Shown here piece by piece: positions 331 through 43,611 of a stretch of 64,000 nt of DNA. Under the pieces are notes generated by a model, which had not been told where the DNA came from, ran no database searches, and saw only the letters and a program-made list of their open reading frames with translations. The stretch comes from Arenicola marina. Its lineage: Eukaryota; Annelida; Polychaeta; Arenicolidae. A program made the translations under genes and the position numbers. Every line of letters starts with the position of its first letter. Within the stretch, counting starts at the first letter, position 1. The stretch covers positions 31,418,029-31,482,028 of the forward strand of contig OZ025261.1 of the NCBI GenBank assembly GCA_964019135.1, written 5' to 3'.

Positions 331-385
331 CCAGCAAACAGGTTAACGTCATGACAACGTTGACAACGTTATTTTTTGTTGCGAT

Positions 386-700
386 AACGTTGTGACCACG
401 TGAAAATGTATGTGTTTTTTTAACGTTGCCAGAGCGTTTTCAGATAACGTTGTCAGATATTTAGTCTGGTATCACAGTTGTGCCTTCTGTTAGAAACAAA
501 TGCCTCTATGATTAAATAATTAGAAGCATGACTGTAAAAGACAATCAATTACATATTGTTTTCATGATGTCTGATTTTTAAGGTAACATTGTCTGATGGC
601 GGTGAACTACCACGTGGTTACCACGTGGTCACAACATGCCTAAATGTGGCGTGGTGCATGGCGGTGAATATTTACTGCCACGTAGTTACCACGTGCGAAA
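386..700. promoter_or_regulatory. E-box cluster with a ChoRE-like paired site
   Basis: Four perfect CACGTG E-boxes lie at 397-402, 611-616, 622-627 and 690-695. The middle two form CACGTG-GTTAC-CACGTG (611-627), the spacing of a carbohydrate response element bound by Mondo/ChREBP-Mlx in animals. A second module at 679-695 reads CACGTA-GTTAC-CACGTG. The two modules lie in a roughly 65-bp tandem duplication that starts with GGCGGTGAA. They sit 530-840 bp upstream of the GBE1 start codon. Regulation of GBE1 is inferred from motif and position only. Confidence 0.5.
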
Positions 701-1163
701 CGTTTTTGTCCATGCATACGCCTTTGAAAACGTCAAGCGACGATTAATAATTAGCTGTCACAAAGCCTAAAATTATTCATGAAACATCTGTCTGGCTTTT
801 TCGACGATGCCATCAGAGGCACACCCACATAAACTCTTAAGTTGGTCACGTTATACAAGGATGATATGGAGTACCCCCTCCAAAGTACTTGAGTTGTGTA
901 AGTCACCGGGTTACGTCTAAACTGCTAAATCGCAGACCACTCAAAGAAGAAAGTTTTGCTATCATGCACGCCTTAGACAGACGCCTATCTCATGGAAGTT
1001 CAAATCCATACCATTAAGGTATTATAAACTATGTTAAGCGTAATTCAAGATCGAGAAGTGAGCTACGTTAAATATTTAGCAAAAGCCAGCAAGACTGCCA
1101 AGAGTTATCTTGTGAGTACGCTAGGAAAATTACCACAGTACTACGGTACGTTGTAAACAAACG

Positions 1164-1169
1164 CACGTG
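1164..1169. promoter_or_regulatory. E-box close to the GBE1 start
   Basis: A perfect CACGTG lies 57 bp before the GBE1 start codon, so in or near the core promoter or 5' UTR. No TATA box is evident nearby. Relevance is inferred from position and from the E-box cluster further upstream. Confidence 0.35.
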
Positions 1170-1225
1170 TATTATTCTGCTTCCGGTGACCTTGTCCGAA
1201 AACGATGCGGTCTTCAACATCCAAC

Positions 1226-4200
1226 ATGGCAGACGGGGACGCGACAAGTGTTGCTGTACCAGACATAGAAACTCTTTTCTCTGTCGATCCTTACCTGAAA
1301 ACTTACGAACGGGAACTACGGCGCAGGTGAAATATCTGAGGCCATTTTGCCACAGCTGTCACTTTCCCAAAATGTGTCGCTGTAATGTATGTCAGTGAAT
1401 GTAGTTGTGAAAGTTGTGAAAATGCGTGAAAATGTCATAGCCCATAATTCATATGATATGGGGCATTGCCAAGTGGCTGTCACTCACAGTCAGATATTGT
1501 CAGGTTGTCCATCCCATTTGTTACTTTCATCTTTTCATAGTCAAATTATTACTATAACGTGCAACCAAGTCAAGACTCTGAGTATTTCATGGTAGAGTCC
1601 TATAATTTATTATAATTGTAATATGCAACCAAGAAAAGACTGGATATTTTATGGTAAAATCTGATAACTCATAGTCATAGATAACTATATTGTGCAGCCA
1701 ATTCAGGACTGCATATCTCATGGTAGAGCCCTACAGCTAACCTGTGATTATGTATATATATTATGGGGATACTACAGTTGATCTTCTTTCAAGAAATAAA
1801 ATATATTATATAAATAATTTTTAGTAAGTAATTATTACATTTATACCTGATAAGATATAGATATTTGTTCTTATAGTTTCTGCCTTATCTGGCTATTAAA
1901 GGTCCATAAATGGTATAAAATATATATTGCATATATGATAATAAATGTGCTGCATGGGAATAAGCAGAATAAATATGAAATTAATTTATGTACCTGTACC
2001 TGTTAATTACTTATTACGTAGAAGGTGGCCATCCTGGTATAGTGGTTAGCACACTGGACCAATTAAAGATCAATAGGGTTAAATCCATGCCCAGGAACCT
2101 AATCTGGGGTGTCTTTCTTTAGTTCATCCTTCATCGTCCTGGGAGGTTCCTTAGCCCAGTTTTGCCCTGGCATGCATATACATAAAAGCAGTGTAAAATA
2201 CCAATTCATTTCATCTACTGGGTACACCAAATATAGTGGCTTATGAATGCAGCATTTTATTTGTATATAGATTTAAACAATATCATGGAATTATTAGGAA
2301 TATAAAGCAACTCTCTATTGATATATATTTGAAAATGATTTCTCTTCAGTGCTTTCATGACTTTTTCATGATGCGTATAATTTACACTTTTCAAAAGTAC
2401 TTACAATGGATCTAAATTTACATCATTTTGTACCTTCCAATTTCAGATATGGATGTTTCAAAACTTTATTGAATGAAATACAGACTAAAGAAGATGGAGG
2501 GCTGGATAGGTTCAGCAGAGCTTATGAAGAGTTTGGGATCCATGTCAAGCCAGATGGAAGTGTCTACTGCAAGGAGTGGTGTCCAAGAGCACAGCAGCTT
2601 TACCTCTGGGGTGACTTCAGTAAGTTAGGATCTCTGCTTCAGCTCTTGCATTAAAATAAAATGATGAAATTCTTGTAAATATAGTCATTGTTCTGTCTTT
2701 TTGTAAACAAGAACAAAAATTTGCTTATTTAAAAAAAACAATATTTAGAGGTGAAGAAAGTCCTACAATTGTTTGAATAGATCTGCTCACTAAATTGCAT
2801 AACTCACATTAATTGTTTTTGTTTTAATTTGTGAAAACAGTGTATTGTCTATCTCTCATAGCATATTAAATTATTGCCCTGTAATACTATAATATCTTTA
2901 ACATGAAATTTGTTCATTTATTTCTTTCCACTGTTAGACAAATGGGACAAGCATCAGTATCCATTCAAGAAGCTTGATTTTGGAAAATGGGAACTGACCC
3001 TGCCTCCCAAACCGGATGGCACCTGTATTATAGATCACATGTCTATAATCAAGGTTTGGTCATATTTTTCTTATATACTAAATATTATATTTAGTCTCTG
3101 GATCCGTTATTAGGTGATGTACTAATTAGTAGGAGTGCACATAAATAGCTTTGAAACCCAAATCGGAGTTTACAGTACCATAACACCAATATGAGATCAA
3201 AAACAGCGGAACGAAATATCTTTCTATATTTTGGCAAGGATTAAAGTGATGGTTATTTATTTCATACATAATATTAATTAATTCCCTACAATGTCTTCCC
3301 TCCAACAATTTCCCTGCAATATATCTAATTATTTCCTACAACGTCTTTGATAAAGTTATATGACGATAAAAATATTATTATATTAAATAATTTCCTATTT
3401 TTCTACAATGCATTTTTTAATTATTCACAATGTCTATATTAGGTTCTTCATTCCCAACAATATATTTGCCATTTGTTATCTCCCTACAAGATATTTTATT
3501 GGCCTTGCAGCTGGTTGTTGTTGACCCTGAAGGGAAGGAGATCGATCGATTATCACCGTGGGCCAAGTATGTAACCAGGCCAGAGAAAGCTGTTGTCTAT
3601 GAACAGTATTTCTGGAATCCGCCCAAAGAGGAGGTGAGTTAACAAGCTTGTTTTTGTCTTTGTACAGCGCCCAGCTCTTTATGCGCGAAGAGTACGGTGT
3701 TACTTCCCAAGATACAGTATGGAGATATTTTTATACCGTAATTTGTCGCATTACCACGATATGCTTAAATTACTGCGTCCAACTTAAACCAATTTCATTA
3801 CACTCTATTTGCACCCTTCCTATAGTAATATATTGTCTGATCCGCATAATACCGGTAGTTATCCATTTACGGTCCCTTCAAGGACAAAAATGCTCAGACT
3901 ATTGATGGGGCACATTTTGCCTTTAATGTTAATATATCAATTGAATGAAAAAGTCCAACTGTTTATCCTGGGTCAAGATTTTTCATTCTTTAGCTCTGCA
4001 CTTTGCAATCAATGCAACACTCAGCTTTAAAAATATGTCAAATGTGTCAACAAGTAGAACGAATGTTCAACTTCGCATATGCATATTTATTAGTCGATTG
4101 TTCTACTTCACACTTTCAGATCCATCAGTTCGTCCACAAACGACCCGAGAAACCTGACCGGCTGCGTATCTATGAGTGTCACGTTGGAATAGCTTCTTGG

Positions 4201-7200
4201 GAGGGGAAGGTGGCTACCTACAAACATTTCACTGATAATGTCATTCCTAGGATAGAAAAACTGGGTAAGCACCATATTTTGACATTACAAATATTTGAAG
4301 CATAAATTTATCGATAAGCGACTTGTTGCGCTGCTTCACCGTTCAATGCGTGCCTCTGGTAAAATATTCTTTTGTATCCACTATCAGTTGCTTTTATCAT
4401 ACATTCTGTTGCAGTAACAAATTGCGTTTATTACCAAAAGGTAATATATTACATAGTCTAGTGTCATATTACTTAGTCTAGTGTCATATTACATAGTCTA
4501 GTGACATATTACAGTCTAGTGTCATATTACATAGTCTAGTGTCATATTACATAGTCTAGTGACATATTACAGTGTAGTGACATATTACAGTGTAGTGACA
4601 TTACAGTCTAGTGACATATTACAGTTTAGTGACATATCACAGTCTAGTGACATATTACATAGTCCAGTGACATATTACATAGTCTAGTGACATATTATAT
4701 ATTTATTACGCATGCGAGCATTAGTTAACGTCATTTGTTGCTAGGTTACAACGCCATTCAGCTGATGGCAGTGATGGAACATGCATACTATGGTAGCTTC
4801 GGTTACCAGATAACCAGCTTCTATGCGGCGTCTAGGTAAGTCAAAGCCCTGAATGACCAGCCGTGATATACGAACGGCAGATGTAACTTCAGCTAAAACA
4901 TAAGGATGTTGGCTATAATTAGATATCATGGTTCCTTCTGCTTGTCGTCTGGGAAAGGAAGATTGATAGTATGCGTGAACTGATATTATATATCTAATTT
5001 TCTCTATAATAATAATATCTGGGCATGCGACAACCTCTTTAGCATATTGGTCGACGAATAGAGACAAATATTTAACTTCTATTCCTGTTGCACGCTCAAA
5101 CAAGTTGGTGTGGAATCCTTTAATTTAATTTGCATGAATAATGCATGCAATATATTATTGGCGTTCCTAGCCAATTTTAACCTTTGAAAACGATCTCGAA
5201 CTTAACAATTTATCATTCCTATTGATCTCCATTTCCACAGTATTGTTACATGCGATTTTGGTTTTAATGGTTGACTTGCCAAGCGATCGCAAGATTAACA
5301 ATGCATCTCAGGTTGACCCCGCCCCCCTCCCTCCCCCCCCCCCCCCCTATCCCCCAAAAGGCAATGTACAGGTTGTGGCTACGTGGCCATTGTCTTTCAG
5401 TCGCTTCGGAAGTCCCGAGGAGCTGAAGGAGCTGATCGACGTGGCGCATTCTCGCGGCATCGTGGTCCTTCTGGACATCGTTCATAGCCACGCCTCCAAG
5501 AACACGGTCGACGGCCTGAACCAGTTTGACGGCACCAATGGCTGCTTCTTCCACGACAACCCCAGAGGCTTCCATGACCTGTGGGACAGCAGACTCTTCA
5601 ACTACCAGGAGTAGGTCTCCCACAGCCGCTAACCATGGGGGGTTTGCTTTTAACGCGCCGTGATCAGTCATAAAGTTTTAAATTGAAATTTCCCGAGAAG
5701 TATAAACTTGTTGGGGAATTAATGTGTTTAGTTTCGTGTGTTTTAGTTTAGACGCTAAGTATGTTGATCAGCTTAACGGCTCAGCCATGTTGTAACACGA
5801 TTTTCAGCAGACAAAACATTTTCGGATTAATTTAGGAAGTCTAAAGATATTTTATTCGGTTGAGCTTTGTAGAAGTGTACGCGGATAGCTATGTCCTTGT
5901 CGATAGAGAATAATAACAGGGTTCTGAAGGATTTAAATTTGTCTCTAGGTGGTACACAGTTCTCTTATATGCGATGACATGATTAGAAACCATCGTATTC
6001 AACACCCCTTTCTCATTCTTCTCATAGTCATGATAAGTTCATGTATCGATCATCCAGGAAAACGCGTCTGAGCGAATGATACATTTAATTATTGGTTTGT
6101 TCCTCAAAAGGTGGGAAGTTGTCCGCTTCCTATTATCCAACCTAAGCTGGTGGGTAGAGGAGTATCACTTTGACGGGTTCCGCTTCGACGGCACAACCTC
6201 CATGTTGTACCACAGTCACGGCTTGGGTGAGTCTTTGCCTTTAGTGAATGTATTAATGACTTTTGTGTTTCGCAACAATCGGAAAAGTTAAAGAGGTGAG
6301 ACCTGCCATCCTTACTTTTTCGGGGCCGGCCCGGTGGCTCAGTGGGTTAGAGCCCTCGCCTTGAGTGTTCTGGCCACCTGAGAGCCTAACGGCACGTGGA
6401 TCGATGGTTCGCGCCCCGCCGTGGCCATGTCTGTGTGGTCGCAAGATCAAGATCCCATGTCCTTCTTCGCAAAGAGTAGGGGGTTACCCCCGGGAACATG
6501 GCTCCACTCTCCCTTCCTTCTCCCATTGACGAGCTATGACCAAAAGTGGTTAAAGCGTCCTGAATATACCACCAACCAACCTTACTTTTTTCGCAGAAAA
6601 ATCTGAGATCTTTATCCTTCATGAACTTTAACATTTGCATAGGTGGGGCTCGAACGACGCACCGGCCGCTTGGGCTGGTCTAGCAGAGCGCATTCGACAA
6701 TAAATCGAATTTTTTTTCTCGAAATTTGACTACTCGTTTTACTATATTCAGTAATAATTGTCTCATGGACACAGAGGCTTAGACTAATTTTATGTCGTTG
6801 TTGACTTTCTTCAGGGCAAGGATTCAGTGGCCATTACGACGAGTATTTCGGTCTAAATGCCGACACAGAGTCGTTGACGTACCTGACCCTGGCCAACCAC
6901 ATGCTTCACACCCGCTACCCCTTCATTATCACCATCGCGGAGGTAGGTAACCTGGTCAACCACATGCTTCACACCCGCTACCCCTTCATTATCACCATCG
7001 CGGAGGTAGGTAACCTGGCCAACCACATGCTTCACACACGCTACCCCTTCATTATCACCATCGCGGAGGTAGGTAACCTGGTCAACCACATGCTTCACAC
7101 CCGCTACCCCTTCATTATCACCATCGCGGAGGTAGGTAACCTGGCCATCCTTCACACCCGCTACCTCTTCATTATCACCATCGCGGAGGTAGGTAACCTG

Positions 7201-10200
7201 GCCAACCACATGCTTCACACCCGCTACCCCTTCATTATCACCATCGCGGAGGTAGGTAACCTGGTCAACCACATGCTTCACACCCGCTACCCCTTCATTA
7301 TCACCATCGCGGAGGTAGGTAACCTGGCCAACCACATGCTTCACACCCGCTACCCCTTCATTATCACCATCGCGGAGGTAGGTAACCTGGCCAACCACAT
7401 GCTTCACACCCGCTACCCCTTCACCATCACCATCGCGGAGGTAGGTAACCTGGCCAACCTTCACACCCGCTACCCCTTCATTATCACCATCGCGGAGGTA
7501 GGTAACCTGGCCAACCACGTGCTTCACACCCGCTACCCCTTCATTATCACCATCGCGGAGGTAGGTAACCTGGCCAACCACATGCTTCACACCCGCTACC
7601 CCTTCACCATCACCATCGCGGAGGTAGGTAACCTGGCCAACCTTCACACCCGCTACCCCTTCATTATCACCATCGCGGAGGTAGGTAACCTGGTCAACCA
7701 CATGCTTCACACCCGCTACCCCTTCATTATCACCATCGCGGAGGTAGGTAACCTGGCCAACCACATGCTTCACACCCGCTACCCCTTCATTATCACCATC
7801 GCGGAGGTAGGTAACCTGGTCAACCACATGCTTCACACCCGCTACCCCTTCATTATCACCATCGCGGAGGTAGGTAACCTGGCCAACCACATGCTTCACA
7901 CACGCTACCCCTTCATTATCACCATCGCGGAGGTAGGTAACCTGGCCAACCACATGCTTCACACCCGCTACCCCTTCACCATCACCATCGCGGAGGTAGG
8001 TAACCTGGCCAACCTTCACACCCGCTACCCCTTCATTATCACCATCGCGGAGGTAGGTAACCTGGCCAACCACATGCTTCACACCCGCTACCCCTTCATT
8101 ATCACCATCGCGGAGGTAGGTAACCTGGCCAACCACATGCTTCACACCCGCTACCCCTTCATTATCACCATCGCGGAGGTAGGTAACCTGGCCAACCACA
8201 TGCTTCACACCCGCTACCCCTTCATTATCACCATCGCGGAGGTAGGTAACCTGGCCAACCACATGCTTCACACCCGCTACCCCTTCATTATCACCATCGC
8301 GGAGGTAGGTAACCTGGCCAACCACATGCTTCACACCCGCTACCCCTTCATTATCACCATCGCGGAGGTAGGTAACCTGGTCAACCACATGCTTCACACC
8401 CGCTACCCCTTCATTATCACCATCGCGGAGGTAGGTAACCTGGCCAACCACATGCTTCACACACGCTACCTCTTCATTATCACCATCGCGGAGGTAGGTA
8501 ACCTGGTCAACCACATGCTTCACACCCGCTACCCCTTCATTATCACCATCGCGGAGGTAGGTAACCTGGCCAACCACATGCTTCACACCCGCTACCCCTT
8601 CATTATCACCATCGCGGAGGTAGGTAACCTGGCCAACCACATGCTTCACACCCGCTACCCCTTCATTATCACCATCGCGGAGGTAGGTAACCTGGCCAAC
8701 CACATGCTTCACACCCGCTACCCCTTCATCATCACCATCGCGGAGGTAGGTAACCTGGCCAACCACGTGCTTCACACCCGCTACCCCTTCATTATCACCA
8801 TCGCGGAGGTAGGTAACCTGGCCAACCACATGCTTCACACACGCTACCCCTTCATTATCACCATCGCGGAGGTAGGTAACCTGGCCAACCACATGCTTCA
8901 CACCCGCTACCCCTTCATTATCACCATCGCGGAGGTAGGTAACCTGGTCAACCACATGCTTCACACCCGCTACCCCTTCATTATCACCATCGCGGAGGTA
9001 GGTAACCTGGCCAACCACATGCTTCACACCCGCTACCCCTTCATTATCACCATCGCGGAGGTAGGTAACCTGGTCAACCACATGCTTCACACTCGCTACC
9101 CCTTCATTATCACCATCGCGGAGGTAGGTAGCCTGGCCAACCACGTGCTTCACACCCGCTACCTCTTCATCATCACCATCGCGGAGGTAGGTAACCTGGC
9201 CAACCACATGCTTCACACACGCTACCCCTTCATTATCACCATCGCGGAGGTAGGTAACCTGGCCAACCTTCACACCCGCTACCCCTTCATTATCACCATC
9301 GCGGAGGTAGGTAACCTGGCCAACCTTCACACCCGCTACCCCTTCATCATCACCATCGCGGAGGTAGGTAACCTGGCCAACCTTCACACCCGCTACCCCT
9401 TCATCATCACCATCGCGGAGGTAGGTAACCTGGCCAACCACATGCTTCACACCCGCTACCCCTTCATTATCACCATCGCGGAGGTAGGTAACCTGGCCAA
9501 CCACATGCTTCACACCCGCTACCCCTTCACCATCACCATCTCGGAGGTAGGTAACCTGGCCAACCACATGCTTCACACCCGCTACCCCTTCATTATCACC
9601 ATCGCGGAGGTAGGTAACCTGGCCAACCACGTGCTTCACACCCGCTACCTCTTCATCATCACCATCGCGGAGGTAGGTAACCTGGCCAACCACATGCTTC
9701 ACACCCGCTACCCCTTCATTATCACCATCGCGGAGGTAGGTAACCTGGCCAACCACGTGCTTCACACCCGCTACCTCTTCATCATCACCATCGCGGAGGT
9801 AGGTAACCTGGTCAACCACATGCATCACACCCGCTACCCCTCCATTATCACCATCGCGGAGGTAGGTAACCTGGTCAACCACATGCTTCACACCCGCTAC
9901 CCCTTCATTATCACCATCGCGGAGGTAGGTAACCTGGTCAACCACATGCTTCACACCCGCTACCTCTTCATTATCACCATCGCGGAGGTAGGTAACCTGG
10001 TCAACCACATGCTTCACACACGCTACCCCTTCATTATCACCAGCGCGGAGGTAGGTAACCTGGTCAACCACATGCTTTAAGCGCACTGGGCCATCACCAT
10101 ATGTATCTCGATGTGAATGGATGAAAGGGGATGGCGATATACGTTGCTTTGGAAAGGAATGGTATCTGCTCCTTAAAGATGTCGTGAATTGACACATATT

Positions 10201-13200
10201 CCTGCTTTGGTTTTGAGAATAAAATTTGGCGGCGCACAATATTCTAGCTTACTTCTGTAGTGCATGTATAAAGCCTGAAGTATAAATAGGCATATATATC
10301 TATAAACGTATATTCGAATAATATATTATTCTATACATGTACGTATATTCGAATAATATATTATTCTATACATGTACGTATATTCGAATAATAGATTTAT
10401 ACTATAGCAATATTTAACAATTAACCGTGTAACTTCTCGCCGTAGGAGGTGTCAGGAATGCCAGCTCTGTGCCGACCGGTCAGCGAGGGTGGGCAAGGAT
10501 TCGACTACAAGCTGGCCATGGCTATACCAGACATGTGGATTAAGGTATTCAGTTGATCTATTTGACGTCTAACTACACTTTCAACTTGTAAAGCTATCCA
10601 GTGCCAACTGTCTTAAGGGGATTGTTATTAACTATCAATTAATGATCTAGTAACAGTTTTGGGGCCAGTTGGCCAATACGCTTTAATATTTCAATTCCAA
10701 CTCTGACACATGTATGTTAACATACCAAGTTGACCAATAGAAAGTATCTTGATTACGATATGAGTTTGAACTTTCAAAATATATTAATAATGTTATTTAC
10801 TTAGTTTTGATTTAGAAAACACCATTACCTTTGTTGCGTATTTGTGTGACATAACAATGCACGCCACTGTAATTAATCAGTAAAACAAACACATAATTTG
10901 TCGATACCTTGGCAGCTCCTCAAGGAGAAGTCGGATGACGACTGGGAGCTGACCAGCATCACGTGGACGTTAATCAACCGTCGTCATGGCGAGAAGCACG
11001 TGGCTTACGCCGAGTCACATGACCAGGCCCTGGTGGGCGACAAGACGCTAGCCTTCTGGTTGATGGACAAAGAGATGTACACACACATGTCGGTAAGATA
11101 AGATAAGATAAAATAAGATAAAATGAGATGAAGTTTTATTTAACGTCGGTTATGTAACAGTCAACAATAAACATTAGGGCAAGTGCTATTGACCGACAAT
11201 GATAAAATGACATGAGCGGATGAGATATATGTACATATAATCATGAAACTATAACAATCATTGCAAACCTTATCCATTAGCTATGTTGCATAATGTGCAC
11301 GAATTACAGTGACACATGAACACACCCGAGGTTGTTTTAAATTCCTTGGCAGGTAATGTCTGAGCCCAACCTGATCGTGGACAGGGGGATGGCTCTGCAC
11401 AAGATGATCCGACTCATCAGCCACGCCTTGGGCGGCGAGGGATATCTAAACTTCATAGGTACACAGACAACAGGGGCAAACAACCATATATTTATAGATT
11501 ATCATGCGGTCTATATGTCACGGAGGCAAATTTAATGGTCCAATATTTAATGTGTAGCTCTGTTAAACAAGAAACTGGAACTTGTAGGATTTTGGTCACC
11601 TAATTAAACTCCGGTTCAGCTTGCATACTTGAGTCATCAGGCCTTAAGAGTGATGTTATAAATCTGGCTGTATTTGTTATCAGACCAAGAGTTGGATCCC
11701 TAGTTATATATATTAACTGTGGCAACATTGGTAATCATGCAATGCAATTGGCTATTCACAATAATACTGTAATTCTGGTTACTTAGATTGATTTTACGGG
11801 GTTTCATCACTGGAAGCGATATTAAAGGTGGCTGTCTGTGTCTTCAGGCAATGAGTTTGGCCACCCAGAGTGGTTAGACTTCCCCCGGGTTGGGAACAAC
11901 GAGAGCTACCACTACTGTCGCCGACAGTGGAACCTGGTGGACGACAAAGTACTCAAGTATCAGTTCCTCAACAACTTTGACGAGGATATGCAACACCTTG
12001 AGCAGAAATACGGCTGGTTGGCTTCCCCGCAGGTAACAGTCCGACTTTTGGAGCCCGGGATGTTGTTATTACACTCATAGGGTTAAACTGATTAATAATT
12101 GTGCAATTGTTACACGTTCTGGTTCTTGTCTAATGTCTCTTATGGTGACATTTTCCTCGTAGTCTCTATTGCTCGTGAAGATGAGCGAGTCAATTACCAA
12201 TCATACAGCTTTTTCCACCATTGTAACTTCTGTGTCCTTGGGGATACGATAATTTAGCCTGTGATTTGTTTGGCACATAGAGAGAATTAGGCTTCACACA
12301 TAAGTTCATCAGTGAGTTACAATTACTGATTAATGATTTGTAGTGTAGTTTGCTATAGTAAGACTCTCCCCCCCCCCCCTGCAGGCGTACATCAGCCGTA
12401 AGCACAATGGAGACAAGATTGTGGTGTTCGAGCGCGCCGGCCTCGTCTGGGTATTCAACCTACACCCCAGTCAGAGCTTCACCGACTACAAGATCGGCGT
12501 CCATGAACCGGGAGTGTATCCTTTCATAGCTAGGATATACGAAAAAAAAACCACGCTACACCCCTGCCCCCACAGCGGCCGCCACCCACGCCACTCCCCC
12601 TGCCCAACCCCGCAGACCAAACCGAACGTATCGGCCGGTCGACCACCGAAATCGGGTCTAAGCAAAACTTTTAGGCACCAGAATTGCCACATTCTTGGCT
12701 TAAGCCCAAACTTAAAGGCTCAACATTATTCATTTATTTCCAAAAATTGGGTGATTTTGGTCTAAGTGGTATTTAAGGGTACTGTATAATGATCTCAGAT
12801 GAAAAAAAGGCTACGAATGCCTGCCAGACAACTCTTAACACTGTTTGTTAAGTATATCTCTCTCCAGTCTGCACGAGCATGTATGGCCTTCTCTGCGGGG
12901 GCTCACTCATGACTTTCATTACAATGAACGTTAGCTGAATTATCCTTAATGTATTTAAGTTACAAAATTGTGCTGGACACGGACTGTGAGCGCTTTGGAG
13001 GTCACAAGAGACTGGATCCAAGCGTGGAGTATCAGTCCTTCCCGGAACCTTGGGATAACCGACACAACCACATGTTTGTAAGTACATATACTCTGGTCGA
13101 CGTGGTCGGGCAAGGACTGGGCAGGTAACAGATGTCTTGCCATAGGGGCATAGGCTTTATAAAATGTATCTTTACCGTGGATAAATTTGCGCTATTGTTG

Positions 13201-13332
13201 CTACTACTAGTACTTCTTATGAAGATAGCAGGTTACCTAACGCCTAAATGCCTTTGTCGTAACCTTCTGTCTCTGCTATTGTAGGTATACTCACCGAGTC
13301 GTACGGCGATTGTACTGGCCAAGGTCAGATAG
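1226..13332 (+). CDS. GBE1: 1,4-alpha-glucan (glycogen) branching enzyme, 16 coding exons
   Basis: Cytosolic GH13 enzyme that moves short alpha-1,4-glucan chains to alpha-1,6 branch points in glycogen synthesis. Exons: 1226-1326, 2447-2619, 2938-3053, 3511-3633, 4120-4264, 4745-4835, 5401-5610, 6111-6226, 6815-6942, 10446-10544, 10916-11092, 11353-11458, 11848-12032, 12385-12515, 12960-13077, 13285-13332. They sum to 2067 nt, 688 codons plus stop; human GBE1 has 702. The N-terminus aligns with the human one (SVDPYLKTY). An N-terminal CBM48 region (YCKEWCPRA) precedes the GH13 barrel. Expected catalytic residues are Asp346 in DGFRFDG, Glu401 in ITIAE and Asp470 in AESHDQ; their spacing of 55 and 69 residues equals the human spacing. 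Glu401 is the last codon of exon 9, and that exon end plus its donor is amplified 51-fold in the intron. Family assignment is certain; exon edges rest on manual splicing. Confidence 0.95.
2027..2215 (+). mobile_element. tRNA-derived SINE (family A) in GBE1 intron 1
   Basis: The head carries a pol III A-box-like TGGTATAGTGGTTAGCA and a weak B box (GGGTTAAATCC). The body has TTCATCGTCCTGGGAGG, shared with the minus-strand element at 50632-50757. This identifies a dispersed SINE family whose head resembles Glu/Asp/Gly tRNAs. Confidence 0.7.
4437..4700. repeat. Irregular AT-rich minisatellite in GBE1 intron 5
   Basis: Tandem copies of a 16-22 bp unit built on CATATTACATAGTCTAGTG; some units lack the CATAG part. 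The array ends about 45 bp before exon 6, so it sits next to the branch-point region of that acceptor. Confidence 0.85.
6320..6590 (+). mobile_element. tRNA-derived SINE (family C) in GBE1 intron 8
   Basis: Best-preserved copy of this family. The A-box region is GTGGCTCAGTGGGTTAG near 6331 and the B box is GGTTCGCGCCC near 6405. The body includes CTTCTTCGCAAAGAGTAGGG and CTCCCATTGACGAGC, and the end is ACCAACCAACC. Related copies lie at 24185-24590 (nested pair) and 28645-28805. Confidence 0.75.
6640..6715 (-). mobile_element. tRNA-derived SINE head (family D), antisense, GBE1 intron 8
   Basis: On the minus strand this has a B-box-like GTTCGAGCCCCACC preceded by CCCAAGCGGCCGGTGCG. Matching sequence is found at 24185-24260 (+) and 52681-52757 (-), so it is a dispersed tRNA-related element. 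Only a fragment is recognisable here. Confidence 0.55.
6895..10080 (+). repeat. 51-unit array made of GBE1 exon 9 end plus its splice donor
   Basis: Fifty-one tandem units cover 6895-10065: 44 of 63 bp and 7 of 57 bp (44x63 + 7x57 = 3171, the exact span), then a 15-base partial unit ending in TAA. Unit 1 is the true end of exon 9. Each unit holds codons for [16 protein letters not shown], then a donor GCGGAG/GTAGGT, then GTAGGTAACCTGGCC. The 57-bp units lack six bases (His-Met), so every unit keeps the GBE1 frame with no internal stop. Differences between units are a mix of silent and replacement changes (Ala/Val, Pro/Leu, Ile/Thr, Met/Val), which looks like neutral minisatellite drift. The antisense strand is open too, simply because the unit lacks stops. 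Confidence 0.97.
10300..10400. repeat. AT-rich 35-bp repeat, GBE1 intron 9
   Basis: About 2.5 copies of a unit containing GTATATTCGAATAATA and ATTCTATACATGTAC. It lies between the 63-bp array and the exon 10 acceptor at 10445. Confidence 0.75.
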
Positions 13333-33200: not shown

Positions 33201-36200
33201 GTAATATATTTACTTTCTCGCTCATAAAACACGTTTCCGCTGCTGCTTATTCCCTGGCATGTTAGCCAGCACAGACTAATATAAGAGACAAAAACACCAG
33301 TAAAATTACGCATGTGTCCTTTACCTCTGGTGAAACATTTAGCGAAATTAAGCCAGCTAAATTTGCACGTTATGCGTTACTGTATGCAGTTTTTACCCTT
33401 ATAGGTAGGTCTACCGGCGCATGTATTTGTCAGTTAAAACGCACATTTATAGGTACGCAATTTACAACTGCCTCGCTGTATTAAACATTGAAGAGTTCCT
33501 ACAAATGTTTGTCCTCTGGTTTCATGCACCCACCCTATGTAAAATCGCCTTTGATTTGCGATTTTCGGGCTTGTTAAACTATAGTCCACTGGCAGTGTTT
33601 CATATTCCCCTGTAACTGTGGCAAATTGTCCCTAACTTGTAGGTTTCGTGTGCGAATGTTAATTAAGGAAGCTGCATTTTGGTGTTGTAGCTTTATTGTA
33701 CTTTTATAATACCTTGATAAAGATCATGGAATGTTGTTTACGCTATTTAGGAAGATCTGATTAATGCAGAGCTGCTTGCGCTTACTTGGTGATTAGCGAA
33801 TCTGTACAAGTATGATACGTGCCTAAATATATTAAATTACTGCATTCAATATCGTAACTCCACCATTTATATCAGCATATTTGTTGCTTTTTATTTAAGG
33901 GATAATATATTAGTGGATTATAATGGCCTATTTTAAACGTGCACTATGTTAGCATTAAACGTAATCACAGCTTCATCGCTTTGAGACACCGCCTCACAAA
34001 ATGGACGCATTACAATAATTACAATACCATTTGTTGTATTATGATGATCTCTCTGTGACGCTTATAGTCGTGTTTTTCTTCTTCAAATAAAAGCCCATAG
34101 CTCCATTCCGTCGCAAAAAGAAAAGTCGCCTTTCCAAGATGAACATTCTGACTAACTCTCCAGTAGGTTTGGATGTGGGTATAGATTGACTTTGCTTTGC
34201 TTTCTATCAACTTGGTGGGTGGCGATGGATTTTAATGTAAAATATTTGGACACTTTTCCGTAGATTTTTCTATTCCATCTCGGTGATTTTTGGCTACGTT
34301 ATACCAACTGTAATATGTAATCATAACTCCTTATTTCACTGGTGTAATTAATAATAAGGTCTGAAAAGTACCTTTAATAATAGAAAAGATAAATTGGCTG
34401 TTGTCAACTGTTGTGAATATAATAACAACTGGAAAAGTAGGAGTTAACATATTGTTTGTCATGGAAATTATTGAATTAGTATTACTTTTAATTACGGTGC
34501 TATTTATTTACACGATAATTGTTGAATATTGCTGTGATACTATTATTGTGCGTCACACATCTCATTACTATTTCAATATATCGCTATTTATTTGTCGCAT
34601 TTTTAGAACAACGCAAGTCCTAGTGACAAGGAAGCAAGGGGAAAGAAAAAACTAACTTTAGAGAAGCCGTCTTTCGCGAAGGTAGGACTATTAGAGTTGT
34701 ATTGTTAGTACTGTACTGTACTGTACTGTTAGCTTTTCACGCATGACATTCCTTGCAGAGTTCTATATACTGTGGATCTTTCCACGTGTTTACAGCGAAG
34801 GATTGATTCTCTGTAAACATACATATTTATGTTGTTTTATTATGGTTTATGCCTTGCGTAAGTCCCGAGATATGTGAAGAGCTACGGAATGACGAGTTCT
34901 CCGGAATGCAGAATCATGCCAGTCGAGCAGTTTCTGCGGGTACCCGCTGCATGTCACCATGGACTAAGTCGGACGCCTGTTAGACTATCATTGCTTCTGC
35001 GTTGCGGATGCAATTCCTGCTCCACATAATTCTGCCATTGCATTGCATTATTTTTCATTCATGTTTCATCTTACCTTCCGCAATTGAAGTTCGTTGTTTG
35101 CCATGCAGTGTGTGTCGACCACGAATGGCAGTGAAAACTTAATTACCTAATGTCCGACATTTTTGTTTCTAAATACGATGTTGGTGACTAAGCGAATTGA
35201 TCCTCTTTCTACATGAAAACGTTTCGTGTATTTTTCATTTCTTTTCTGATGTTTTATTTTAGTTGTCATTTGTTATAATGTCCGTTCCGTTCGACTGTTG
35301 CATAGAAACCACATTACTTTATTCGGTTTATAATTACGCGCCGACGGGTATGACGCGCATGACCCATCTCCATCATTGCTCAATTAAATTAATTATATCT
35401 TTCTTGTACTTTGAAAACTTGTTTCAACGTTTCAGTATTTCCCAATGCATGGTTCTCAATGTTATTTTTTCCGTGTTCTGTGTAGTTTGGATGGATGGTG
35501 GTAAAGTTCCTTTCTTGCAGTCCATGTTTGATTTATCGACAACGACCATGGAGGACTTCACAAGCCACAAACGGGCTAAAGTGGACCTCGACTTGCGTGG
35601 CTCAGAGAGTGATCACGAAAACGAAAGTGAAACTGGACATTCCAGTAGTTATACTATGCAGGACATCGAGGAGGCTGAAGTTGACCTCGATGAGCTGATG
35701 GAGCGACGAGTGGGTATTCCTGTATATGGCTATTCGTGGCACAGCTTTATCTTGTATATATTTCATGTTTCACTGAATTCACATTTGTCATAAACTGTGA
35801 CGTCACTCACTTGTCAGAATTTCATTTTAATAACTTCCTTTGTAGTCGCGTTAACGTGAAATGTCGATTTGTAACACTCTTGGTACACGCAAGTGCAGCT
35901 ATTCATAAATGGACAGTTACTCGTCTCACTAGCAAACATAACGCTGCTTTCGCTATTCGCTTGGCCTTTTCTAGGCTTTGAGTGACAACAACTGAATCCG
36001 CGCATAGACGCACTTTTAATAGATGAAAATAACATGCTTCTATACGAATTATCGATTATTACAGTGGTACACTGACCGCTATTTAGACAAATAGTCTGTC
36101 ACTCAAAGTCTCCTTGTTTATTTCTTTTCTGTCAATATCTCTTTATAACATCGGCAGCTGGGCATTAATTCTTGTAACTGTTTCAATTTGAATATTGTTT

Positions 36201-39200
36201 ATTTTCTCCTTGTTGCCATATTCATTGGTGAGGTGTGAATAGATAAGTTCGGTTTGTGGGTTCTTTACTCTGTTAACTCTCGCCAGTCGCAGAGTGATAA
36301 GGCCGAAGTCATGGTATCGGAGAGTAGACCCGTTGTCCAGGCGATCGCGGATGTACCTGAGACTACGCCGTCTGTGGATGAACCAATGGCGACGACTGAT
36401 CAAGTGGACGCAGCAGACGACAATCAAAACGCGCGCGTTGACAACCTCGAGCAACCTCCGACGGCGTACAGAGAGCGGGAAATCATTGAGCCTCCTCCTT
36501 CAACAGGACTAAAGCCGATGGAATTGGAAGAACCACTGGCTGATCAGGAGCTGCGAAATACGACCCCGCCTAGCTCTCCCACTGTCCAACCGTCCGCGAC
36601 AAATGGTCTATCCCCATCGCTCAGCAGACTCGAAACTTCAGACGGGCAATCGCACGCTGACAACGACAACCAATCCAATGTGAACTTCGCTGAAGCCGGC
36701 AAATCTGTTGATAACGAACCTGATCACGTGGTACAGCCACTGCTAAACACCGAGAGCAGCGAGTTAACCCAGGAAGTAGCGGTGTCTCCCAGCGTATCTT
36801 GCTCGAAGCCTAGTCCACGCCCTGAACGAAAGTCCGTGGATGATTCGCATCAAGTAAACTCTTTTTCTTTCATTTCTGTTCTGTTCTTTTTAGTGATTAA
36901 CTTTTAGTAGATTATCTTTTCTTTTATAATTCATGTTACGTTTGACTTGTTAGTATATGTTGGAATGTTGGACTGATTATTTATCAGAATCTTTGGACCA
37001 TTCTAGAAAACATATTTATATATGCGCATGTTTTCTAATTATGACGCTGAAATTACTGAACAGCTTATTACAGTTTATTCGCCAACAACATGATGATGTT
37101 ATGCATAGCGTTTAACCACAAACAGTTCGTCGATAAATTGTTTTACACGTACTAATTGATTTAAATACTTTAAAGAACTAAACGCTTGATATTAATATTA
37201 GTCATTAACCTATAATTATGACTGGCTACTAAAACAGTTTATATTCGGATTTCGCCAAGTTGGAAAGCTATAACTATGCAATAAGATAGTAAGTTCTTCT
37301 TAGCGTATTTCAACATAATTATGATCTGATTATTAGCGGAAGCTCGATTTTATATTTAATTCTTATTGTTCTTCGGCTTGATCATCAATTACGGTTCTGG
37401 ATAAAAGTCCTCATATGTATATATGAACAATTGTCTGAAGTGTGAACTTTTGTCAAGAAATATATAACTTAATGTTTGCTTAAAGGTTAAGGAAGAATCA
37501 AGCACCGAATCTGATTGTCCAGATTGTGGTAAGTTGAGCTAGATATTTACGTACTACTTGAATTAAGTACTACTTGAATTAATTAATTAAGTTTTTTCTC
37601 ACAGAGTGTACATGAAGATTTATAATTATACATTATGTAATTATAATTATATAATTAATAACGACTTCTATATGAAATATTCTTAATATGCCTTTTTTTT
37701 ATAAATTGTGTTTTAGTCTATAAATGGACAGGTCGGAGACGGTGCTCCGGCCGCAACAGTAGACCTGTTGATCTGTGGGTGCTTAGCAGTAACACATTAA
37801 TGAACAATATTAAATTAGGCCGATCTGATTCCGGCCGTATATGATCATCCATTCCTCACAATAGAAAATCGATATTTTTCCTCCTGCCACTTCAACTAGG
37901 TACTGTACATACATTGTAATGTAATAAAACACGGAAAAACCACGTGACTCCTCTGCTCGCAGACATGAGAGATGATTTTCGTCGGCGATCTCAAGAAGGC
38001 GCGCCGTTCATCTCTGGCAGCGACAACGTCACTTCCGGATCCGGAGGGGATGCCAATAGTGACGAGGACCAGAAGTCTGAGAAGGAGAATAAAGAGAGCG
38101 AGCGTTGGCCTGGCGACGGTCGGGACCAGGCAAAGAGGATGACGGAAGGTACTCTTCATAGCGCAGGGAATGAAATGTTTTAGGGGTTTTATGCCGCTTT
38201 GTGCATATGAAGGTTGAATTGGGCCAAGAAACCGCCAGGACGACTTTGTGAGATTTAACTTTATGATGCCAGAGAAACTACTCAAAACACACACCATATA
38301 ATGGTCAATATTTTGTGTTTCAACGTTTTGGGGTGGAAATATCTAGAAATTATATTTTCATCTCGATATGTACATTTTTGCATGTTTTCATGGATGGCCA
38401 CACGTTTGGCTGCTCACGTGGTTTACAGGTTAATATTACCTTCACAGTTTGGCATTCCCTTAACTGAAAGCCACCAATGGGATTTAATTCCCAAACGCTA
38501 GCACCGGTATTTACACAAATCTGTTTGTCGTTCACTCTCTATCTACCATGCTTTGTCCCTCAGTCAATCGCAGGCACACCTTGCAATTTGGTAAGCGGAA
38601 CGTCCACAAAGTAGCAGCTCACGACCTCCACGAGGGTATCCTGGAGTACAAGAAGGCTCAGGACGAGAGCTCGGTCAAGGCCAAGGCGCAGACACTCCCT
38701 GAAGAAGTCATGGAGCAGTTCAAAGAGTTATCTCGAGAGGTTAGCTATTTACACCCAAATGTGCCATTATTTATTGCTTGAGTGTCCTGACCGGCTAAGG
38801 TAGGTCTCGTTGGTTCACGTGGAATCCGAATGGTGATTGGTGATATTAATTTTGAGCCGTGGCACAGTGTTATTTTGTGTTCGAAGACAGCTTTTTGACA
38901 ATCGGTAAATCACGTACATTGTGTCATACACTTCTCTTCGATCAGAATAAGCACGAAGCAGGTCATGATGGATACATCATATTGTAGTTATATGGCTTCC
39001 GTCAGTAATTGCTGGACAGTCTAGTATGAGGTACTTCTCCAAAGGTACTGATAAAGGTAGTGATAATATAAATGCGTCACTTTCTTTTTTTGCAGGATTT
39101 AATCAAGAAAATATTAGAACAGCGGCTTACAATACAGAAAAAGGACGCCGCCAATCGTGACCTTGAGAGCTACATAGACAACCTGCTCGTCAAGGTCATG

Positions 39201-39602
39201 GAAGAAACCCCCAAACTGCTACAGAATCCGGCGTCACCCTTAGCTAGAGGCGCTAACAACCGGGGATTCATGGGAGCGGGGTCAAGGCCGACGTCCCAAG
39301 GTCAAGGTCAATCCGGCCAGCGGCCTCAGCCGACGATCTCGAACCGGAACGTTTCACAAAGTTCTCAGTCCGGCTATTCTGCTGTGTCGTATTCGGCTAC
39401 AGTGGGAAATACGAACTTGATGAACAGGGCTAACGTCCAGGTATTATCGCCCACGTCTCACCCTCTAGCGCCCTCACGCGGCACCAATGTGAACACTAAA
39501 GTACACCCGGGCACCAAGTCGACACCCACTATCTCAGCGTTCAACAAGAGCCCGAAAAAGCATTTGAACCCGTTCAAAAAGTTGCAACAAGCCATGAAAT
39601 GA
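16351..39602 (+). CDS. Class I Rab11-family interacting protein (C2 domain plus FIP-RBD), 15 coding exons
   Basis: Adaptor that binds membrane lipid through a C2 domain and active Rab11 through a C-terminal coiled coil, acting in endosome recycling. Exons: 16351-16381, 28937-28975, 29314-29416, 29689-29820, 31129-31301, 31817-31932, 32065-32130, 32486-32755, 34607-34681, 35521-35709, 36287-36853, 37486-37528, 37963-38148, 38564-38739, 39096-39602; sum 2673 nt, 890 codons plus stop. The start MWSPTHVQVTV matches the vertebrate FIP1/FIP5 N-terminus and joins in phase to YRARNLLTKGKGG (exon 2) and TNDAYVTIKLG (exon 3). The C2 region is about residues 1-130. The middle is acidic, Ser/Pro-rich and low in complexity. 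The Rab11-binding segment is about 713-762, with YIDNLLVKVMEE at 748-759. About 130 residues follow the RBD, ending in a basic stretch with an NPF motif. Orthology to FIP1, FIP2 or FIP5 individually is not decided. Confidence 0.93.
16526..16866. repeat. 56-bp AT-rich tandem repeat in Rab11-FIP intron 1
   Basis: Nearly six copies of a 56-bp unit containing TTAATGTAAGTGTGAAGAAC and AATTAAAATCCAGATTCAG. It begins about 145 bp after the first coding exon. Each unit includes GTAAGT, a strong donor-like hexamer. Confidence 0.9.
17211..17333 (-). other. Possible exon or fragment coding a leucine-rich repeat
   Basis: On the minus strand a TTCTATTTCAG acceptor-like site precedes an open frame with hydrophobic spacing typical of a leucine-rich repeat (KALEIAHASIHNVPINLL, then LEDLIRLD), ending in a stop at 17211. 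No donor follows, so it would be a terminal exon or a relic. It lies antisense in Rab11-FIP intron 1. I cannot name a gene for it; chance is possible. Confidence 0.25.
18236..18264. repeat. (TA)n microsatellite
   Basis: An uninterrupted TA dinucleotide run in Rab11-FIP intron 1. Confidence 0.9.
18400..18590 (+). mobile_element. tRNA-derived SINE (family B)
   Basis: A perfect pol III B box GGTTCGAAACC lies at 18457-18467. The body GGGGCATATTTCATCCC matches the SINE at 57822-57965. The tail CGTGCGCGCAAAACGG then AACAACAATC is shared with other SINEs in the window. The A-box part is degraded. Confidence 0.65.
18825..18980 (+). mobile_element. tRNA-derived SINE with shared 3' tail
   Basis: A-box-like CTATCTCAATCGGTAAG, degenerate B box (AGGTGCAAACCC), and the tail ATGCGCACAAAAGCGG then CGAAACAACAAT, the same tail type as at 18540-18585 and, in antisense, at 50632. 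Confidence 0.55.
19614..20180. repeat. G-rich DNA with four 67-69 bp tandem units
   Basis: Four copies of a unit containing GGTACTGGTGGGTGGCGGAA and GGTTCACATCTGTCCGG start at 19922, 19991, 20058 and 20127, separated by G runs of varying length. A further G tract is at 19614-19625. The many GGG runs make G-quadruplex formation on the plus strand plausible. Overlapping open frames here are products of the repeat. Confidence 0.85.
24185..24590. mobile_element. Nested SINEs: minus copy inserted in a plus copy
   Basis: A plus-strand element (family D head GGTCGGTGCGTGGGTCGAGT, then body AAGATCCCATACCTTTCTTC) is interrupted after 24290 and resumes at 24475 with CGCACAAAGTAGGGGG. Between them lies a minus-strand family C copy (about 24291-24474). 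CGCACA occurs at both junctions (24285-24290 and 24475-24480) and looks like a target-site duplication. Confidence 0.65.
24847..24869. repeat. Uninterrupted run of 23 G
   Basis: Homopolymer of guanine in Rab11-FIP intron 1. Its exact length is likely variable and difficult to sequence accurately. Confidence 0.9.
25225..25362. mobile_element. Truncated MITE copy (first of a tandem pair)
   Basis: Starts with AATAGACCTATCCATAC, a one-mismatch version of the terminal repeat of the neighbouring element, followed by TCCGACACTAAGCCCCGCCC and GAGTATGAAATTAACC. It stops where the second copy begins, in the TTTTGTTTGTC region. Confidence 0.6.
25363..25620. mobile_element. Complete MITE with 14-bp perfect terminal inverted repeats
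   Basis: 258-bp non-coding element whose ends AATAGACCGATCCA (25363-25376) and TGGATCGGTCTATT (25607-25620) are exact reverse complements. It holds one CCCCGCCCACGC motif near the left end and no coding frame. The same internal sequence recurs at 27573-28426. Confidence 0.7.
26030..26190. repeat. C-rich direct duplication
   Basis: Two copies of a unit of about 65-75 bp containing TTTACCCTCCACC and CCTTGGTTGGACCC, separated by C runs. No other signal. Confidence 0.8.
27573..28426. mobile_element. MITE carrying an internal tandem expansion
   Basis: Bounded by GGGCCGATCCATAC on the left and TGGATCGGTCT on the right, matching the ends of the 25363-25620 element. The right part (28222-28426) matches that element closely (GTGGAAGACC, ACCGCATGATTGGATAAAAG). 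The left part is expanded into a 19-unit array, giving about 855 bp against 258. Confidence 0.7.
27582..28221. repeat. 19-unit array of 33/35-bp GC-box/EGR-like units
   Basis: Nineteen tandem units of the form GTCATACTCCGACACTAAGC then CCCGCCCACGCT, with or without TGA. Thirteen units hold CGCCCACGC, the reverse complement of the EGR1/Zif268 nonamer GCGTGGGCG. The array is derived from a single motif in the MITE. It lies about 0.7 kb before Rab11-FIP exon 2. Protein binding is inferred from the motif only. Confidence 0.9.
28451..28545. repeat. 46-bp direct duplication
   Basis: Two nearly identical copies start at 28451 and 28497 (CGTTTAGGGAAATCTTA against CGTTTAAGGAAATCTTA), just after the expanded MITE. 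Confidence 0.85.
28645..28805 (+). mobile_element. Internally deleted family C SINE
   Basis: A-box-like GATAGCTTAGTGGGCTAGAG joins directly to the body CATGTCTTTCTTCGTGAAG, so the B-box part present at 6320-6590 is missing. It ends in AACCAACCAACCAACC. It lies about 130 bp before Rab11-FIP exon 2. Confidence 0.7.
29957..30892. repeat. 22-bp minisatellite, about 42 copies, Rab11-FIP intron 4
   Basis: Unit TGACCGTGGTACGCTGTGAT then AG, with variants at a few positions (CGCT/CACT/CATT/CAAT; GACC/GGCC). It fills most of the intron between two C2-coding exons (29820 and 31129). The long minus-strand open frames of over 350 codons across it arise because three 22-bp units equal 22 codons; they are not genes. 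Confidence 0.95.
30988..31110. repeat. 23-bp repeat before Rab11-FIP exon 5
   Basis: About five copies of a unit like ACATTTTCTAAATGTACTAT then GAA. The array ends about 20 bp before the exon 5 acceptor, within the usual branch-point zone. Confidence 0.85.
31490..31563. repeat. 18-bp repeat, four copies
   Basis: Four copies of TTTTGTCAATGCGATACT in Rab11-FIP intron 5, the last with one substitution. Confidence 0.9.
32918..33085. repeat. Degenerate AT-rich repeat, Rab11-FIP intron 8
   Basis: About five diverged copies of a 28-35 bp unit with TTATTTAACATACCTTACTA and TTATTGTAG. The remainder of this intron (33086-34606) shows no other structure that I can support. Confidence 0.7.
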
Positions 39603-43110: not shown

Positions 43111-43611
43111 TTAGTTATCAAGAAACTTGTAAACTTCAGGTGCATAACCATGGTGTGCAAGAAAACGAACTAAGTCTTGTCCAGATATAGTTACAGATAC
43201 TGAAGGATCCATAGGATGGAAGTGAAGAAGTTCTAGACCCTTTAAGAGATCTTCATCAACTACAACTCTGATACCCTTGGAACTATCACATATTAAAGCC
43301 AAAGGAGAAACAGAACCAGAGTCCAGTTGGAGTAAAGATTTCAACTCCGATTCAGATGCAAAAGAAAAATTCCTGCATGCATTCAGTGTCCCTTTCAGCC
43401 ACTTGAGATCTATGGCTTTGTCTTCATGAGTAACAACCAGGTAGAACTGTCCTTTCCGATCTTTGAGAAGCAGGTTCTTGCAGAAGGTCCCCTGAACACC
43501 ATTTCGGTCACTCTCCTCATGGTAGCGGACAATTTCTACTTCAATCCCCAGCTGTTGGAGGGTGGCAAGGACCAAATTCCTGCCACCCTCCCCACAACCA
43601 GAGGTCGCCAT
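43111..43611 (-). CDS. PRORSD1: Prolyl-tRNA synthetase associated domain protein (YbaK/ProX fold)
   Basis: 166 residues covering the whole single YbaK/ProX editing-like domain, close to the usual size of about 169. The family hydrolyses or binds mis-acylated tRNA and is related to the editing domain of bacterial prolyl-tRNA synthetase. Visible family motifs are CKNLLLKDRKGQFYLVV near residue 44, an ID-LK block, PLALICD near 106, and FHPMDPSVSVTISGQDLVRF near 132. I chose the ATG at 43609-43611 (MATSGCGEGG); the in-frame upstream ATG at 43674 would add 21 residues after which TTACAGCTGCAG looks like a splice acceptor in the 5' UTR. The coding part is a single exon, unlike its neighbours. It is tail to tail with Rab11-FIP. 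Confidence 0.9.
   Translation of the reverse strand: MATSGCGEGGRNLVLATLQQLGIEVEIVRYHEESDRNGVQGTFCKNLLLKDRKGQFYLVVTHEDKAIDLKWLKGTLNACRNFSFASESELKSLLQLDSGSVSPLALICDSSKGIRVVVDEDLLKGLELLHFHPMDPSVSVTISGQDLVRFLAHHGYAPEVYKFLDN

Follow-up and report, generated by a model that had tools for sequence, protein, structure and literature searches.

Which donor does a gene use when the end of one of its exons, together with the splice signal, has been repeated dozens of times at the start of the following intron? This question is raised by a stretch of 64,000 nucleotides from the annelid Arenicola marina (assembly GCA_964019135.1, contig OZ025261.1, positions 31,418,029 to 31,482,028), which we refer to as the window and which lies on the contig that we call C14 in a genome of 867 Mb. 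The window holds, on the plus strand (1226-13332), the whole gene of the 1,4-alpha-glucan-branching enzyme, GBE1, in which the tail of exon 9 and its donor occur in 51 tandem units. Based on this locus and on similar arrays elsewhere in the genome, the best supported reading, to which we give a probability of about 0.8, is that GBE1 would be spliced from the first of these donors, the array having originated as a minisatellite and its later copies being spliced out with the intron.

The exon 9 array of GBE1

The GBE1 model has 16 exons and an unbroken product of 688 amino acids, with GT and AG at the ends of all 15 introns. Human GBE1 (4bzy) aligns to residues 7-687 of this product with 1039.7 bits. 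The last residue of exon 9, Glu401, aligns with the Glu of the human ITIAE/DVSGMP sequence and is followed by EVSGMPALC, in agreement with an earlier, preliminary description of the locus that placed the catalytic Glu at the end of this exon. A genome search with a 263-base exon 9 DNA query matched the window locus only, which suggests, as far as this one query goes, that GBE1 is single-copy. The features of the gene and the array are:

1226..13332, plus strand: GBE1 (1,4-alpha-glucan-branching enzyme) coding region, 16 exons, 688 amino acids
1226-1326, 2447-2619, 2938-3053, 3511-3633, 4120-4264, 4745-4835, 5401-5610, 6111-6226, plus strand: GBE1 exons 1-8
6815-6942, 10446-10544, 10916-11092, 11353-11458, 11848-12032, 12385-12515, 12960-13077, 13285-13332, plus strand: GBE1 exons 9-16
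6815..6942, plus strand: exon 9 if the first donor is used; its last codon is that of the catalytic Glu401
6889..10059, plus strand: tandem array of 51 units, each with 54 (48) nt of exon 9 tail and 9 nt GTAGGTAAC
6889-6951, plus strand: unit 1, the coding copy with the authentic donor
6943..6948, plus strand: first donor GTAGGT (GAG/GTAGGT), most likely the used one, the same in 51/51 units
10060..10077, plus strand: truncated final copy of 18 bp, from the unit parse
10078..10080, plus strand: in-frame TAA directly after the array, which would end the reading frame if intron 9 were retained
10078..10445, plus strand: remaining, non-array part of intron 9; it includes a 35-bp repeat (10306-10406) and the acceptor TTCTCGCCGTAG
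10446..10544, plus strand: exon 10 (EVSGMPALC...), from the alignment to human 4bzy

Tandem Repeats Finder reports a single array at 6888-10077 with a period of 63, 51.3 copies and 95% matches. Unit-by-unit parsing gives 51 units of 16 distinct types, 44 of them of 63 bp and seven of 57 bp, as had been described. It was also suggested that each unit consists of about 16 codons of exon tail and 15 intron bases; the combination of exon tail and intron bases is correct, but the full-length unit contains 18 codons (54 nt) and 9 nt of intron. The donor GAG/GTAGGT, which had been reported from every unit, is indeed found in 51/51, with the GT of the last donor at 10051. Sixteen units, unit 1 included, are exact copies of unit 1. 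The mean distance of the units to the consensus is 1.0, 0.65 and 1.76 in the successive thirds of the array, so that divergence is seen at the 3' edge and is weaker at the 5' edge, where the coding copy sits. A decayed extra unit 3' of 10077 was looked for and not found, the best local match being 8 bp and equalled in 87 of 1000 shuffles. Beyond the array and the TAA, intron 9 continues for 365 nt, including the small 35-bp repeat.

The donors and acceptors of GBE1 were scored with splice-site weights, position frequencies and a U1 5' end. By these measures the unit donor forms the strongest U1 duplex among the 15 donors of the gene (-12.0 kcal/mol; the next has -10.8), and by position-weight score it ranks third of 15 and is equalled by only one of the 368 other intronic GTs in the gene. 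The nine donor columns are invariant among the units, in which 12 of the 63 columns vary. Selection that preserves the donors was considered and rejected as an explanation of this invariance, which arises by chance alone with P=0.13. Among the splice sites of GBE1 one donor of 15 and no acceptor of 15 carries an array. The exon 7 donor (5611) is likewise GTAGGT, yet has no array.

Reading frame and selection

The preliminary description had noted that both unit lengths are multiples of three, that no unit has a stop and that every donor is in frame with exon 10. This is what we find: the offsets of all 51 donors are divisible by three, and no stop interrupts the frame before the TAA at 10078-10080. 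One minus-strand frame is likewise open across the array. Only 3 of the 189 possible single-base changes of the unit create a stop and the chance of seeing none is 0.90, so the lack of stops is weak evidence of anything. The 63-bp unit probably goes back to one event and the 6-bp deletion to one or two, and with so few founding events the rule that all lengths are multiples of three also carries little weight.

Thirteen distinct substitutions distinguish the units, 3 of them synonymous and 10 replacement, where 23-28% synonymous changes are expected (P=0.47). These changes look neutral, and the replacement changes had already been taken to argue against selection on a repeat protein. Such selection, which we considered and rejected, finds no support in them or in the chance of 0.90 for a stop-free array. 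The in-frame state of GBE1 is most likely coincidental and not selected, because the other donor arrays in the genome (see below) are mostly out of frame or contain stops. Since those arrays are mostly untranslatable, translatability is not what keeps such arrays.

Protein comparison was made in two ways. Searching with the read-through frame yielded 175 matches among 7,994 scored candidates; each of the 120 listed covers at most 13% of that frame, so the array is absent from these. Among 189 listed homologues, 187 have no insertion after the catalytic Glu (179 by pattern, 6 with Gly for the Ala before the Glu, and 2 by eye). The other two are Ixodes models (P0171 and P0184) that break directly after TIAE (ITIAE), and these breaks hint that the intron position after the catalytic Glu may be old and shared with ticks. 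An AlphaFold2 model of eight units, made without an alignment, is a beta-solenoid with a pLDDT of 79. Such models of near-perfect repeats are generally unreliable, and this one was not used as evidence.

Boundary arrays elsewhere in the genome

A pattern of three AGGTRAGT motifs with a spacing of 33-63 bp occurs in 20,564 segments of the whole genome, against 6,399 for the reversed pattern, and as these segments overlap within arrays the counts are not independent. The first-listed matches represent four arrays on contig C1, three of which begin at an exon end; the fourth is part of a long satellite and has no exon. The three are:

L039, reverse complement 358-6020: AASS-like array, 41 bp x138, in which a unit of exon tail plus donor fills nearly the whole intron
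L040/L041, G000 C1:605765-612308: ALDH-like array, 39 bp over ~6.5 kb, ~165 copies by length
Antistasin/WAP/Kunitz-type gene: array of 34 bp x13.5 that begins at the exon end

The AASS-like gene has an AlaDh_PNT_N match across the junction (E 1.4e-12), with the next exon ~70 bp past the array, and the ALDH-like gene has an Aldedh match across the junction (7e-35). The exon of the antistasin/WAP/Kunitz-type gene is weakly matched, with a lustrin repeat below its cut-off. The names AASS, ALDH1 and those of the CCT subunits are more specific than the analysis itself, which gives the Pfam domain only.

In order to avoid choosing exons by their repeats, a sample of 59 exons was chosen by homology. 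It contains 49 CCT/Cpn60-family matches (30 with loci of at least 3 kb, 9 more inside those loci and 10 fetched separately) and 10 of 13 ALDH-family matches; the remaining three looked like tandem copies, by nearly equal query ranges and scores and not by alignment, and were excluded. At least one exon of the sample, L071, is the last of its gene, and others may be single exons. Donor-side arrays that include the exon tail were found at 4/30, 1/9 and 0/10 of the three CCT/Cpn60 groups (L047, L048, L057 and L066; L062), and acceptor-side arrays that include the exon head at 1/30, 1/9 and 0/10, both in L063, a CCT-eta-like gene. The 10 ALDH-family loci have one acceptor-side array (L078) and one donor-side array (L083), which is diverged and hence counted as probable. 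The L078 array was called by eye, as Tandem Repeats Finder splits the repeat into 2.9 + 2.2 copies, and its repeat ends short of the domain match, which begins inside the exon.

In total, donor-side arrays are present at 5/59 exons, with one more probable, and acceptor-side arrays at 3/59. From the local array density 0.015 per boundary would be expected, or ~0.9 per side, a rough figure that was derived from 30 of the same loci with the boundary arrays included. Against this expectation the five donor arrays have P=0.002 and the three acceptor arrays P=0.06. In no case was an array seen to lie entirely within the matched part of an exon, by a formal rule on 30 loci and by row inspection for the rest of the 59, and the numbers of donor and acceptor arrays, 5 to 3 in these exons, do not differ significantly. 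The excess of boundary arrays over chance is a lead and not proof.

Two CCT loci deserve separate mention. The region G000 C17:26057-26073 kb (L048, L062 and L063) apparently contains one CCT-eta-like gene with two donor-side and two acceptor-side arrays, which brings first-donor and last-acceptor cases side by side. At L045 (G000 C5:14202523-14202759) an open frame of 1,049 amino acids contains a CCT/Cpn60-family match, even though Tandem Repeats Finder detects no array at this locus.

Which donor is used

For GBE1 and eight other donor arrays we counted the donors that would give an in-frame, stop-free product, a donor being any pattern-matching copy within the fetched stretch, whose end is reached by the L047 and L062 arrays. 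All 51 GBE1 donors are of this type. The AASS-like gene has 1/129 such donors, the CCT-like arrays 1/6, 1/8, 1/30, 1/6 and 1/16, the antistasin-type gene 1/13 and the ALDH-like gene 15/146 (12/112 with a stricter pattern). In seven of the eight other arrays only one donor is translatable and it is always the first, so that splicing from the first copy is needed if those genes make protein. The acceptor arrays appear as the mirror case, in which it is the last copy that continues into the exon. The simplest rule that fits both sides would be that the copy joined to the body of the exon is the one used, and GBE1 should follow it. Use of the first donor only, which had been offered as an alternative in the preliminary description, is now favoured by these sister arrays.

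Several points weigh against this choice. The sister genes are presumed to make protein because their exons are intact, and for GBE1 itself use of the first donor is predicted from genomic DNA. All 51 donors share the same nine splice-site bases and form stronger U1 duplexes than the other 14 donors of the gene, so that the first has no advantage in its own sequence. According to the consulted parts of one study, the intron-proximal donor is preferred when exonic enhancers lie between competing donors (PMC5585400), and exon sequence does sit between the donors of the GBE1 array. The last donor would, moreover, give an ordinary intron of 395 nt, where the first gives one of 3,503 nt. Exon length, in contrast, speaks for the first donor: exon 9 would have 128 nt with it and 3,236 nt with the last, and the internal exons of GBE1 have 91-210 nt.

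A sequence of events that fits first-donor splicing can be proposed. The array probably began as a short tandem duplication that straddled the boundary of exon 9 and intron 9 and then grew into the intron by unequal exchange or slippage, the tandem structure itself being what is observed. The copy attached to the rest of exon 9 would have kept working as the exon end. Its donor at 6943 would pair with the acceptor of exon 10 (10446), and the 50 later copies would be excised within the 3,503-nt intron. The first donor would probably win by exon definition, in which the acceptor of exon 9 would favour the 128-nt exon and the RNA would be committed before the later donors compete. The open, in-frame state would be a by-product of a 63-bp unit that is drawn mostly from coding sequence.

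A wider proposal would hold that the founding of arrays at boundaries is preferred genome-wide (8-9/118 against ~1.8 expected), that, as a crude estimate, one donor in ten has from 5 to more than 100 downstream copies of itself, and that a strict rule of using the exon-joined copy (first donor, last acceptor) leaks in GBE1 into a low-level ladder of in-frame repeat isoforms. As a whole we regard this proposal as doubtful, with perhaps one chance in four.

Among the alternatives to first-donor splicing, the one that survives best, though we hold it to be unlikely, is stochastic choice among the donors, which would create a ladder of transcripts and proteins containing from 0 to 50 additional copies of the 19-21-residue peptide, up to +1,036 amino acids. 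The 51 strong donors, identical, in frame and free of stops, would permit it, and in human UBC a tandem array gives a ladder of units in RT-PCR from dual-specific sites (PMC10809524). Against it stand the neutral pattern of unit changes, the 187/189 listed homologues without an insertion after the catalytic Glu, the sister arrays of like design, most of which could not make protein in this way, and the amphioxus arrays discussed below, which are reported to splice normally in the consulted parts of the papers. The insertion of 0-50 peptide copies after the catalytic Glu by donor choice gains no positive support and is the least supported part of the preliminary description. The related claim that the intact enzyme requires the first donor probably holds, though not strictly, since the native sequence up to EVSGMP would be recovered from the last copy too.

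Dual-specific or recursive use, in which each unit would serve as both donor and acceptor and the array would be spliced out in steps that regenerate the donor, would yield the same message as the first donor and appears to us quite improbable. Two overlapping AGGT motifs (GG-AGGT-AGGT-AAC) are present in 51/51 units, and in UBC a 3' site that scores only -0.21 is still used (PMC10809524). As acceptors, however, the GBE1 units score 0.12 in the commonest type and 1.33 at best, below all 15 real acceptors of the gene (at least 3.66), and 146 of 307 ordinary intronic AGs match or beat the 0.12. By these scores the units make excellent donors but weak acceptors.

Use of the last donor under the intron-proximal rule, giving a GBE1 with ~1,036 extra residues, is still less probable: its 395-nt intron is typical for GBE1 and the enhancer effect mentioned above would favour it, but it would require the 3,236-nt exon, would place an insert where homologues have none and would break the product in 7/8 other arrays. 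Finally, an assembly artefact is very improbable, for although the exact copy number rests on one assembly, the 16 unit types stand in a non-repeating order (mixed-type words recur only up to three units), which argues against simple assembly duplication, and arrays of like design are found in several genes.

Relation to known repeats of splice boundaries

Minisatellite-like tandem duplications of exon/intron boundaries have been described in amphioxus as mirages, in Adh3, BflGb6, BflGb9, TnC and PGBD5 (PMC3087553, PMC3902484; the statements here are limited to the consulted parts of both papers). Their units range from 10 to 160 bp and undergo concerted evolution (PMC3087553, PMC3902484). Adh3 has units of 10-72 bp, BflGb6 has units of 150-160 bp on the acceptor side with 6 and 3 copies in two haplotypes, and BflGb9 has a 157-bp duplicate on the donor side (PMC3087553). 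According to the same parts, RT-PCR of the globin genes and the Adh3 data indicate that splicing is undisturbed by mirages (PMC3087553), and the same is stated for Adh and TnC (PMC3902484).

The GBE1 array resembles mirages in that its unit spans the exon/intron boundary, the splice signal is repeated (in 51/51 units here, in many units there) and the host gene is intact, and the arrays of this genome resemble them in that donor and acceptor sides both occur. The copy numbers differ, GBE1 having 51 units and the AASS-like gene 138 where the two BflGb6 haplotypes have 3 and 6, and GBE1 is set apart from mirages by donors that are all in frame and stop-free. In a tree of 41 GBE1 sequences the window gene belongs to a 12-row group (99/96) that also includes the annelids Capitella, Helobdella and Lamellibrachia and eight further rows; Branchiostoma stands apart from this group, and the annelid Owenia lies outside it at an unresolved fork. 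Judged from sequence, the arrays are probably of the same kind as the amphioxus mirages, in another phylum. A literature search found no annelid mirage among the listed titles and abstract openings, which is no proof of absence. The kind is thus already known from amphioxus; what is new is the host, the copy numbers above 130, the genome-wide spread and the 51 identical donors that are all translatable.

Two other systems can be compared. The dual-specific arrays of UBC and VCX3A likewise consist of tandem units with AGGT, and the UBC unit is also a multiple of three (PMC10809524). In UBC, however, the units themselves form the protein and splicing uses the acceptor side (PMC10809524), whereas a GBE1 unit repeats the end of an enzyme exon and its AG is a poor acceptor. 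In potato RdRp and in the near intron pairs of Drosophila short tandem duplications have also copied splice signals, as far as the consulted parts of the reports describe (PMC4974935, PMC2891723). Unlike these cases of intron gain, GBE1 shows no sign of a new intron. Since a non-array 3' part and the acceptor remain in intron 9, the intron is probably older than the array.

Other features of the window

Tandem arrays make up ~17% of the window in 20 arrays that were merged by hand from 44 Tandem Repeats Finder rows with short ones excluded, or 16.4% in 19 arrays by script. One of them, at 55355-57840, has a 64-bp unit x38.8 that includes the stretch TTAGCTCAGTTGG, which we take to be tRNA-like and A-box-like. 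Intron 8 contains, at ~6320-6580, a SINE-like segment carrying GGCCCGGTGGCTCAGTGGGTTAGAGCC, presumably also tRNA-like. In the whole window ARAGORN found no tRNA and there was no Rfam match at the gathering cut-off. Two further open frames are:

35263-39599, plus strand: presumably resembling a Rab11-FIP protein
43114-43704, minus strand: presumably resembling a PRORSD1-like protein

Meaning of the arrays

To our knowledge, the choice among identical 5' splice sites has been studied mostly with two-site constructs. The arrays of this genome are natural substrates with from 6 to more than 100 near-identical donors on which such choice can be studied. In the AASS-like and CCT-like genes protein can be made only by the first donor, while GBE1 is translatable from any donor, so that the choice can be read there. 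The presence of the mirage kind in several genes outside amphioxus may mean that it is a general outcome in minisatellite-rich animal genomes. It is of relevance for intron growth, for intron gain and for errors in gene models, in which an in-frame array can be mistaken for a long coding exon. As a class, such arrays deserve attention, being frequent and at times very long within one animal genome and made up of identical splice sites.

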